This document shows, piece after piece, positions 19,676 to 34,991 of a stretch of DNA of 36,738 nucleotides (position 1 is the stretch's first letter; every line of letters begins with the position of its first letter). The stretch lies in the IMG/VR virus record IMGVR_UViG_3300005527_000134, positions 1-36,738 of that record; one strand, 5' to 3'. The notes beneath the pieces were generated by a model. That model did no database searches. It saw only the letters and a list, made by a program, of their open reading frames with translations, and was not told the DNA's origin. A program made the translations under genes and the position numbers. The stretch is from a virus.

Positions 19676-20593
19676 ATGAAATTGAAATTTGATGAAAAAG
19701 TAGAATTTTACATTACCAATGTCTGCAACTACACCTGCGATAATTGCAACCGTTTTAACAATCATAAATTTTCAGGATGGCAACGCTGGAGCGATTACGA
19801 AGGCATCTATCAACAGTGGGCAAAACAAATTGAACTACGTGCCATAACTATCTTAGGTGGCGAGCCCACACTAAATCCCACACTGTCAGAATGGGTAGTG
19901 GGCTTGAATGAAATATTCAATTGCGATGTAGAAATACTGACCAATGGCACTCGACTGAATCATGTCCCAGGACTGTATGAGGCAATGACCAGACCCCGAC
20001 CGCCAGAAAGGCCAGTGAATCACATTGGAGTGAGTCTGCACAACATAGCAGACTTTGAAATGTTGCGTCAAAACATATTGGATTTTCTTGATACCGTTGT
20101 AGTAGAATTTGGTTTTAAATTAGACCTCCCCCCACCACCAAATTGGCAAGGATGGGATTCATACTGGACTGTGGTTGATAAAAATGGTGTGATTGTTTGC
20201 ATGCACCTAGCCAACAATTTCCAAACATCCGCTGTGCAGTTAAACAACACTGGCCGATTTATTGTTCATGACAGCGACCCTATACGCAGTCATCAACAGT
20301 GCGGATTTGTTAAATTTAAATGCTATCACTTTGTTCGCGGAAAAATATACAAATGCGGCCCCGCGGCGCTGTTTCCAGAATTTGATGAACAAAATCAATT
20401 TGACATTTCTGAATCAGATCGCCAGATCATGAACAGCTACCGACCACTGACCTTGGACAACTTTGAACTCTACAAAGATGATTGGGTGGAAAGTTTAAAG
20501 CACCCAATTCCACAATGTAAATTTTGTCCAGACAAAGGAATCAATAGAATTATTACCCCCACAGTCAAAGGCACTGCATCCAATGACACATAA
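19676..20593 (+). CDS. Radical SAM enzyme with auxiliary cysteine cluster
   Basis: This 305-aa protein carries the radical SAM signature C17-x3-C21-x2-C24 (NVCNYTCDNCNRF), which binds the 4Fe-4S cluster that cleaves S-adenosylmethionine. It also has the GGEP motif (61-64, in ITILGGEPTLNP) that contacts the SAM amino group, and a TNGTRL strand near 89-94. Five further cysteines (C209, C216, C227, C281, C284) suggest a SPASM-like auxiliary cluster, found in enzymes that modify peptides or proteins. The substrate is unknown. It overlaps the next gene, an SGNH hydrolase, by 11 bases, so the two are probably translated together. Radical SAM genes of this NRFNN type occur, as far as I recall, in other marine phages but without a known role. 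An alternative is a cofactor or nucleotide-modifying enzyme; the sequence does not match QueE. Confidence 0.85.
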   Translation: MKLKFDEKVEFYITNVCNYTCDNCNRFNNHKFSGWQRWSDYEGIYQQWAKQIELRAITILGGEPTLNPTLSEWVVGLNEIFNCDVEILTNGTRLNHVPGLYEAMTRPRPPERPVNHIGVSLHNIADFEMLRQNILDFLDTVVVEFGFKLDLPPPPNWQGWDSYWTVVDKNGVIVCMHLANNFQTSAVQLNNTGRFIVHDSDPIRSHQQCGFVKFKCYHFVRGKIYKCGPAALFPEFDEQNQFDISESDRQIMNSYRPLTLDNFELYKDDWVESLKHPIPQCKFCPDKGINRIITPTVKGTASNDT

Positions 20594-31220: not shown

Positions 31221-31829
31221 ATGAAACCATTTGCCAAATATCTAGCAGAAAGCGAACGCACATACGACTATCGTATCAAAATGTGCGGCCGCATTCCAGA
31301 CGATCTTGTGCGTCAACTCAAAACCAAGCTGGATCAATTTGATCCAACTAAGTTGGGCGATGCCAAGACCACTCCTATTCAAAAGATCCTCACAGACTTT
31401 CCAAACAATCAGAATGATGCTGTGACAATGTTTGATGTGAGTTTCAAGTATCCTGCTATTGAGCCGCAGATCAAACAACTGTTTCAAATGCTCGGTGGCA
31501 ATCCCAATCTTATTGTGATGCAGACTCAAGCTCACGTTGATGGCCTGGTTGATGAAGCAGACAAGATTGAAGCTGAAAACAAAAACTTGTTGGCTGACAC
31601 AGACTATCCAACACCTGATGCTGCTCAGCGAGCACTTAGCAAAGACTACTCAACTGGTCCATACGATCATGCTGTGTTGAAAAATGCTTACCGCAGTGAT
31701 TTTACTATTGCTGGAGAAAAGACTCCACCTGCTAAAACCACTAACCAACTTCCCCAGGGCAACAAGAGCCCTATGACCAATATCAAACGTCAACCCAAGC
31801 CTGCAACCGGCGCCAACCCAAGAGGATAA
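31221..31829 (+). CDS. Conserved protein with capsid-targeting-like N-terminus
   Basis: This 202-aa protein starts MKPFAKYLAE-SERTYDYRIK. The first ten residues resemble the T4 capsid-targeting sequence, ending in L-A-E, which fits the (I/L)-x-E cleavage rule of T4 prohead protease gp21. After this it has a compact domain: YDYRIKMCGRIPDDLVRQLK (15-34), KTTPIQKILTDFP, VTMFDVSFKYPAIEPQIKQL. It then has an acidic helical part and a Pro/Lys/Asn-rich tail. I recall a family with the RIKxCG start and FDPxxxxxxKxTPxQ pattern next to gp16 in aquatic T4-like phages, of unknown function. A head-interior role is inferred from the N-terminus only. It starts behind an AATAAATA element and CAGGAA. Confidence 0.78.
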   Translation: MKPFAKYLAESERTYDYRIKMCGRIPDDLVRQLKTKLDQFDPTKLGDAKTTPIQKILTDFPNNQNDAVTMFDVSFKYPAIEPQIKQLFQMLGGNPNLIVMQTQAHVDGLVDEADKIEAENKNLLADTDYPTPDAAQRALSKDYSTGPYDHAVLKNAYRSDFTIAGEKTPPAKTTNQLPQGNKSPMTNIKRQPKPATGANPRG

Positions 31830-34233: not shown

Positions 34234-34605
34234 GTGCGAGCACAAGAGTTCATTGCAGAAGACAAAGTTGGCACGATTAGCAAACGCAATCAAAATGCCA
34301 CAGTAGGCTTGAACAAGTTTCGAGACAAGCAGTTTGCTGACCGCGTGTATGAACTCAACAGAATCATGATGGCAGTGGCATCTACTGATGGCACGTTTGT
34401 ACCTGATCTTGACGGCGAATCATGGAGCGGTCGCAACAATGTGGCAGCACCATACACTCCTGAAGAACAGGCCATGTTGAAAAAGGCCTATCAAGCAGTG
34501 GGCAGTCATCACCAAGACCTAAATCATGGCGATTTGGCTTCGCAAGAACATCCAGCAGTGAATGCCACCAGTCCAGTCAAAGCATTCCAGGGCTATCCAA
34601 GATGA
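34234..34605 (+). CDS. Capsid-targeted protein candidate A (MRAQEFIAE ... GYPR)
   Basis: This 123-aa protein starts with GTG at 34234, with GGAGG nine bases upstream. Its N-terminus MRAQEFIAE-D closely resembles the T4 internal-protein capsid-targeting sequence (as I recall, MKTYQEFIAE for IPIII), and I-A-E fits the (I/L)-x-E rule of prohead protease gp21. The middle has a helical segment (FADRVYELNRIMMAVASTDG), an acidic loop (PDLDGESWSGRNN) and YTPEEQAMLKKAYQAVG. The end, TSPVKAFQGYPR, is shared with the next gene. I infer that it is packed into the prohead, cleaved after residue 9 and possibly ejected with the DNA. There is no known fold, Cys or membrane segment. It overlaps the next gene by four bases (ATGA). 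Confidence 0.75.
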   Translation: MRAQEFIAEDKVGTISKRNQNATVGLNKFRDKQFADRVYELNRIMMAVASTDGTFVPDLDGESWSGRNNVAAPYTPEEQAMLKKAYQAVGSHHQDLNHGDLASQEHPAVNATSPVKAFQGYPR

Positions 34606-34991
34606 GAGCACGAGAATTCATTACTGAACAAGCAGCTATTTTGCCACCAGAGCAATCTGACCCCATGCGTTACACTTATGTGATTCCAGGACTGAGTGCA
34701 GCCGACCCCTATCGCAACTATAGATTTGGTGTGGCATTGGCACGAGCCAGAAGTGATGCTGGCAAAGATGGAATTACCAATCACATTCCCAATTGGCATG
34801 ATGAAACAGCATTTGGTGAACATGGTGTGGTCGAAGGCATGGGTCCTAACGTTGCTGAAATTATTGATCAAGCGTTGGCAATGACCAACACACCTGGTGG
34901 CAAAAAACTAGTGTCAACACCTGACAGCACAGAACCCAGCTTTGTAAGCACAACCAGTCCTGTAAAGGCATTTGCTGGCTACCCTCGCTAA
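34602..34991 (+). CDS. Capsid-targeted protein candidate B (MRAREFITE ... GYPR)
   Basis: This 129-aa protein has N-terminus MRAREFITE-Q and C-terminus TTSPVKAFAGYPR, matching gene A in both tags while the middle differs. The middle contains MRYTYVIPGLSAADPYRNYR, FGVALARARSD, HIPNWHDETAFGEHGVVEGM and a helical EIIDQALAMTNT. I-T-E fits the (I/L)-x-E cleavage rule. The pattern of fixed ends and a variable centre suggests two cargo proteins using one packaging route and perhaps one C-terminal interaction site. No enzymatic motif or fold is recognisable. It is translationally coupled to gene A by an ATGA overlap. Confidence 0.75.
   Translation: MRAREFITEQAAILPPEQSDPMRYTYVIPGLSAADPYRNYRFGVALARARSDAGKDGITNHIPNWHDETAFGEHGVVEGMGPNVAEIIDQALAMTNTPGGKKLVSTPDSTEPSFVSTTSPVKAFAGYPR

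Follow-up and report, generated by a model that had tools for sequence, protein, structure and literature searches.

The window, which is the whole stretch of DNA that was analysed here, spans 36,738 bases and is a virus record of IMG/VR; its genes include those for the tail sheath, tube, head-tail adaptor and head closure of a T4-like myovirus. Its source is an uncultivated giant (jumbo) freshwater phage of the T4-like kind, and contigs whose gene 1 is 99% identical reach up to 364 kb. Two small genes, referred to as gene 1 and gene 2, overlap by 4 bp (ATGA) and encode proteins that begin and end alike; a neighbouring gene encodes a protein with a further leader of similar character (Table 1). 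Elsewhere in the window, an ORF at positions 19676-20593, with a C-x3-C-x2-C motif near its start, resembles by eye a radical SAM enzyme.

Table 1. Coordinates of the gene pair, its conserved ends and the leader-bearing neighbour.
Feature	Position	Strand	Basis
Gene 1, family protein type 1	34234..34605	+	ORF, GTG start, 123 aa
Gene 1 leader MRAQEFIAE, predicted capsid-targeting sequence, predicted cut after Glu9	34234..34260	+	T4 ipII/ipIII likeness, conservation, displaced-site variants
Gene 1 conserved C-terminus TSPVKAFQGYPR	34567..34602	+	Motif searches, C-terminal scan
Gene 2, family protein type 2	34602..34991	+	ORF, ATG start, 129 aa; middle homologous to gene 1
Gene 2 leader MRAREFITE, predicted capsid-targeting sequence	34602..34628	+	Same basis as gene 1 leader
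Gene 2 conserved C-terminus TSPVKAFAGYPR	34953..34988	+	Motif searches, C-terminal scan
Neighbour protein starting MKPFAKYLAE, further CTS-like leader (31221-31250)	31221..31829	+	EST35_0202 homolog

Within the window, a six-frame motif search confines SPVKAF, GYPR-stop and EFIxE to genes 1 and 2. When the two ends were scanned separately in IMG/VR each retrieved the other, and a count over 18 large relatives, of which six are near-identical to the window, gave 44 MRAxEF-type starts, as opposed to 0 for the reversed pattern; the shared starts and ends described in an initial sequence-only reading of this DNA are thus real and far beyond chance. Searches for relatives in IMG/VR confirmed 108 stretches related to gene 1, of which 80 were kept, and 79 loci related to gene 2; of the 80 gene 1 loci, 76 have a gene 2 next to it. 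Adjacent family pairs overlap by 4 bp (n=211) or by 1 bp (n=22), in counts made per locus in which the same contig may appear twice. The pair is syntenic and shares a late operon with genes of head closure and small-terminase-like genes; this fixed pairing and synteny suggest that its function is of importance to each infection, with the two products perhaps forming a hetero-oligomer.

The middles of the two proteins, which the sequence-only reading had taken to be unlike, prove to be related once profiles are compared. In 129 distinct gene 1/gene 2 pairs, the first nine residues are on average 77% identical and the C-terminal motifs 69%, as against only 22% for the middles, where a shuffled control gives 21%. 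Nevertheless, alignment by hhalign of profiles built from 65 members of each type and trimmed to the middles yielded a probability of 99.1 (score 98.6, E 1.1e-18), against scores of at most 14.7 for 100 column-shuffled decoys and 12.8 for a reversed profile; with the S-x-E region removed the probability was still 98.3, while an earlier, shallower comparison had reached only 62.6. Invariant or nearly invariant residues recur at equal spacing (Y39-R43-A47-A49...S103-E105-S113 in one type and Y37-R41-A45-A47...S109-E111-S119 in the other). AlphaFold2 models of the two proteins (mean pLDDT 82.5 and 82.2; pTM 0.50 and 0.54) place the main helices in the same order, with the first ten residues poorly ordered, and have the same best match in BFVD, the uncharacterised protein A0A6J5KNQ7 (E 0.019 and 5.6e-4). 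Since homologous profiles, residue spacing, models and common match all agree, genes 1 and 2 are, as judged from these comparisons, tandem overlapping paralogs of one family. This family comprises two main types and a small third type (4 of 350 members), with up to four members at a locus (L340, L295); tandem arrays of three or four divergent members are seen at L340:2014-3495, L295:7370-9789 and L336:1695-2850. It is of note that identical residues of the shared ends are encoded by different codons in genes 1 and 2 in 49% of cases at the N-terminus and 53% at the C-terminus, so that the likeness of the ends appears to be best explained by selection on the peptide rather than by recent swapping of centres.

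The C-terminal motif was scanned in IMG/VR as S-P-V-x-x-F-x-G-Y-P only. Among the matches listed it occurs in 146 distinct ORFs, lying within 16 residues of the stop in 141, and 139 of the latter are matched by middle-only profiles built from other loci, the two others being fragments with 32 and 19 residues visible. A scan for both ends added 48 distinct ORFs, 47 of which end in the motif and one of which has a longer tail. The proposal that this end marks a wider family is hence borne out, while its use as a fixed docking end around changing centres is contradicted by its restriction to one family, and a role as a portable or mobile tag was rejected on the same counts. Other tails exist, since 10 of 363 family members end in K-x-N-K-Y-G-V or similar. 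A loose expression for the C-terminal tag flagged 22 of the 94 listed ORFs of the N-terminal scan described below, a number that falls to 16 once six that are by eye other proteins (L189, L210, L223, L228, L254, L276) are removed. SPVxxFxGY(P)R is thus, by these scans, an integral conserved end of the family, and perhaps a docking surface.

The leader, by comparison, has a recognizable precedent. The QEFIAE of gene 1 is identical to residues 5-10 of T4 ipII and ipIII, both of which start with MKTYQEFIAE, so that the resemblance to the capsid-targeting sequence of T4 internal proteins noted in the sequence-only reading is genuine. In T4, gp21 follows the site rule L/I-x-E, and leader residues 4, 7, 8 and 10 have roles, according to excerpts of PMC9026906. 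Targeting by the IPIII leader depends on its residues 4 and 7; Phe7 is matched by Phe6 in the present leaders, and Tyr4 finds no clear counterpart. The sites of the window pair are IAE (gene 1) and ITE (gene 2), as the sequence-only reading had recognized, and leaders of relatives also show V-x-E and F/M-x-E, which is looser than the T4 rule. Because the searches for relatives of both genes partly used peptides that include Glu9, and a larger set of 437 proteins was selected by MRAx[ED]F, conservation of Glu9 is argued from scans that leave it free. In a scan of IMG/VR with M-R-A-x-E-F-I, with position 9 free, the matches listed include at least 120 hits and 101 distinct translations, of which 7 were dropped as shorter than 40 aa; Glu9 is present in 80 of the 94 remaining ORFs. 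Among the matches listed for the C-motif scan, the start is visible in 136 ORFs, and every one of these begins with M[RK][AS]xEF, 131 of them as MRAxEF; Glu9 is carried by 129, six show an (I/L)-x-E four positions further on, and in one an IQE lies one position further on. MRAxEF[ILV]xE is best read as a putative capsid-targeting sequence of the T4 type that includes a cleavage site for gp21.

The proteins that have lost Glu9 are informative in this respect. Within the 437-protein set, Glu9 is present in 409 and absent in 28, of which 11 have [IL]xE exactly at residues 11-13, nine have a site at another place between residues 7 and 24, and eight have no such site. By contrast, [I/L]-x-E at residues 11-13 is found in 0 of the 409 Glu9 proteins (Fisher p 9e-15, a value overstated since the sequences are related). 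By eye, the 11 displaced sites fall on five different middles: six belong to one type 1 lineage and one to a type 2 protein, and the others are those of the L248/L221 subtype, of L194 and of L255. Leaders extended by four residues, with Glu9 lost and (I/L)-x-E at 11-13, were recorded at L283, L291, L307, L357, L386, L145, L248, L221, L194 and L255. T4 itself offers a precedent for a displaced site, ipI having K-E-F followed by ITE at residues 17-19; its mature form of 76 residues (excerpts of PMC3012670) equals 95 minus 19 and fits a cut after this ITE. Such variants amount to a natural experiment on the protease site, in which a longer leader is accompanied by re-creation of the site four residues on, and the (I/L/V)-x-E site looks selected.

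Use of the leader is modular, in that it also caps proteins with other middles. The 437 proteins form 24 components, 15 of which have Glu9 members, and a stricter leader set of 425 splits into 360 family members and a remainder of 65 that form 18 clusters. A Pfam scan of 20 non-family leader proteins detected GNAT acetyltransferases in L453 and L429 (above the curated cut-off) and in L197 and L216 (below it), an ADP-ribosyltransferase (PF03496, 2.1e-14) with leader MRAQEFIPE in L272, GH19 in L246 (1.4e-12), DUF6321 in L428 and L245, and a single sub-cut-off match in L201; 11 of the 20 had no match at E 0.01. The enzyme-like proteins of related phages that carry MRAxEFxxE lie at L453:1501-2505 and L429:2-706 (GNATs), L272:1878-2480 (ADP-ribosyltransferase) and L246:971-2020 (GH19). 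In the wider group the leader thus caps unrelated middles. The idea of variable centres between fixed ends is not supported for the pair, whose centres are one diverged homologous domain. In cyanophage isolates with a DUF6321-type domain (L516-L519), the leader was found on none of the four proteins read. There, the domain closes long hypothetical proteins, which are followed, in S-CREM2 and P-TIM68, by a gene annotated as large terminase subunit.

Numbers of leaders differ between phages, with seven MRAxEF-type starts in the 300-kb contig G008, and five in G015; the six contigs near-identical to the window each have a single ATG-type start, which belongs to gene 2. A proteome-wide N-terminal excess of the site motif was not found in the near-identical contig of 364 kb, residues 6-10 carrying it in 6 of 489 crudely predicted proteins and other bins in 1 to 11; the crude gene caller missed gene 2, which the start count of the large contigs includes. 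This points to a CTS-like leader on only three genes there, and by these counts the large 'cargo set' belongs to the phage group at large, the window's own phage having only three leader-bearing genes.

If the leader is a gp21 substrate, its phages should have the corresponding head machinery. The prohead protease gp21 (PF03420) was detected in 16 of the 18 large related contigs, including the six near-identical to the window, in a region beyond the window fragment, and the capsid protein gp23 (PF07068) in all 18, the same six among them. All 17 capsid proteins that could be aligned (the remaining one is cut before this region) have L-x-E in their N-terminal arm, as YLKE in 16 and LLAE in one. 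In T4 gp23, FLTE ends at residue 65, the position of the cut that removes a propeptide of 65 residues (excerpts of PMC9026906); in a MAFFT alignment the capsid L-x-E falls about a dozen columns after FLTE because T4 has extra residues there, and it matches the T4 site, by alignment, in place along the arm and not in column. Among the matches listed, the 32 N-scan contigs of 30 kb or more include seven with gp21, eight with gp23 and 17 with a contractile sheath, whose model also matches two control bacteria, the union being 17 of 32. At least one such marker occurs in 13 of 20 of these listed contigs with a Glu9 leader, in one of six without Glu9 (a contig that has LDE further on) and in three of six whose hit lies outside the 94 ORFs. 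In seven of the 20 listed contigs with a Glu9 leader, gp21, gp23 and sheath were all unseen, many being fragments. This test backs a T4-like head context in a supportive manner only.

Additional indications come from the neighbour at 31221, which lies upstream of the pair at a distance of a few genes, and from phage PA5oct, whose capsid protein, like that of Vibrio phage 2.275.O, is approximately 65% identical to that of a contig near-identical to the window. The neighbour matches PHROG 14802 'virion structural protein' (E 0.00075) and PA5oct EST35_0202 (BLASTP 6e-8), and its YLxE is kept at 40 of 45 loci of its homologs, the other five being cut or read from a different start. Between positions 20,000 and 269,999 of the 286,783 bases of PA5oct, the pattern M[KR]xx[polar][hydrophobic][ILVM]xE occurs at three starts. 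Two of them, EST35_0150 and EST35_0238, are marked as detected by ESI-MS/MS in the record and start with M-K-x-x-D-I-[I/L]-x-E, like the leader of genes 1 and 2; the third, EST35_0271, has no MS mark and is annotated from another start. EST35_0202 is homologous to the neighbour and marked as MS-detected, yet it lacks the site. The PA5oct marks favour leader-bearing virion proteins, in a supportive and not a conclusive way.

The family is common in IMG/VR contigs. Elsewhere, tblastn searches of isolate records, in which both window proteins and two distant family members served as queries, gave no relative, and in species genomes the double-end pattern had 0 matches and 48 stretches matching the gene 2 pattern gave 0 confirmed relatives. 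Pfam and PDB searches found no relative of the family, and Pfam and PHROG scans gave scattered weak hits and nothing firm. A named fold was sought by PDB-sequence profile searches and discarded, the best E values (0.1 and 0.039) being weak; Foldseek against the PDB gave 0 matches for the gene 2 model, and VIA returned 0 chains for gene 2 and, for gene 1, eight that all fell below Z 2. Among the PMC papers listed on capsid-targeting sequences, none dealt with this leader in environmental phages, an absence that does not amount to proof; excerpts of PMC7824862 discuss ARTs and GNATs of jumbo phages and do not mention 'capsid targeting'.

Taken together, genes 1 and 2 probably encode small internal-head proteins of a T4-like jumbo phage that are loaded by their leader, cut by gp21 after Glu9 and possibly ejected. 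The first nine residues would serve as a capsid-targeting sequence, binding the core and recruiting the protein into the prohead core; a gp21-type prohead protease would then cut after Glu9, at [I/L/V]-x-E, and mature proteins of 114 and 120 residues would remain inside the head. Ejection with the DNA may follow, although both this step and any action in the host are a guess. We infer the head loading and the cleavage of the pair from sequence, and by a mechanism already known from T4: the proteins would work like IPI, IPII and IPIII, each with an N-terminal leader ending in (I/L)-x-E, with no common descent claimed. Database searches gave no relation of the mature products to T4 internal proteins, from which they differ in their nine-residue MRA-type leader, in being two conserved paralogs with a conserved C-terminus, and in charge, being near neutral (mean net charge +0.6 for type 1 and -0.8 for type 2) as opposed to basic. 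This charge argues against plain DNA condensation; assembly, DNA organisation and action in the host are candidate roles.

Other explanations deserve consideration. The pair could consist of head structural or assembly proteins, of the core or inner capsid, whose leader serves incorporation and, once cut, release, with no delivery to the host, a serious possibility that we place somewhat short of an even chance. Its conservation, synteny and late operon context are in keeping with such a role, and T4 IPIII itself affects head assembly (excerpts of PMC9026906); however, the same leader on GNAT, ADP-ribosyltransferase and GH19 enzymes makes little sense as head structure. It is unlikely that the leader is merely the conserved start of a diverged gene family, with no targeting role and a T4 likeness due to convergence of a short motif. 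Paralogs need no special cause for shared ends, short motifs do recur, and packaging and cleavage of the pair are read from sequence, but neither the leader on unrelated middles nor the (I/L)-x-E variants four residues on would thereby be explained. Finally, portable fixed ends around exchangeable unrelated centres, as proposed in the sequence-only reading, agree with the shuffled-level pairwise identity of the middles and are very improbable in view of their homologous profiles, of the family middle in nearly all listed ORFs with the C-motif (the rest being fragments), and of the codon differences at half of the identical end residues.

The reading of the pair as internal-head proteins would bear on the wider phage group. 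The T4 leader is seen as letting T4-like phages package various proteins, and T4 Alt is a head-packaged ADP-ribosyltransferase with gp21-cut ends (both from excerpts of PMC9026906); the L272 ADP-ribosyltransferase, a protein of the wider group and distinct from genes 1 and 2, would follow the same logic. That MRAxEF[ILV]xE serves uncultivated T4-like jumbo phages as a general label for head loading, marking delivered proteins, with the C-terminus of the pair as a second docking point, is a tentative proposal whose chances we put at slightly under even. If true, the label would cover acetyltransferases, ADP-ribosyltransferases, a chitinase-family enzyme, DUF6321 and other basic proteins, and a neutral two-paralog family, and much of the injected proteome would be predictable from DNA alone. 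An N-terminal motif would then read out the head-carried proteins of an uncultivated jumbo phage group, provide a predicted role for a family that has no database annotation, and name candidate factors of early takeover or counter-defence that can be put to the test.
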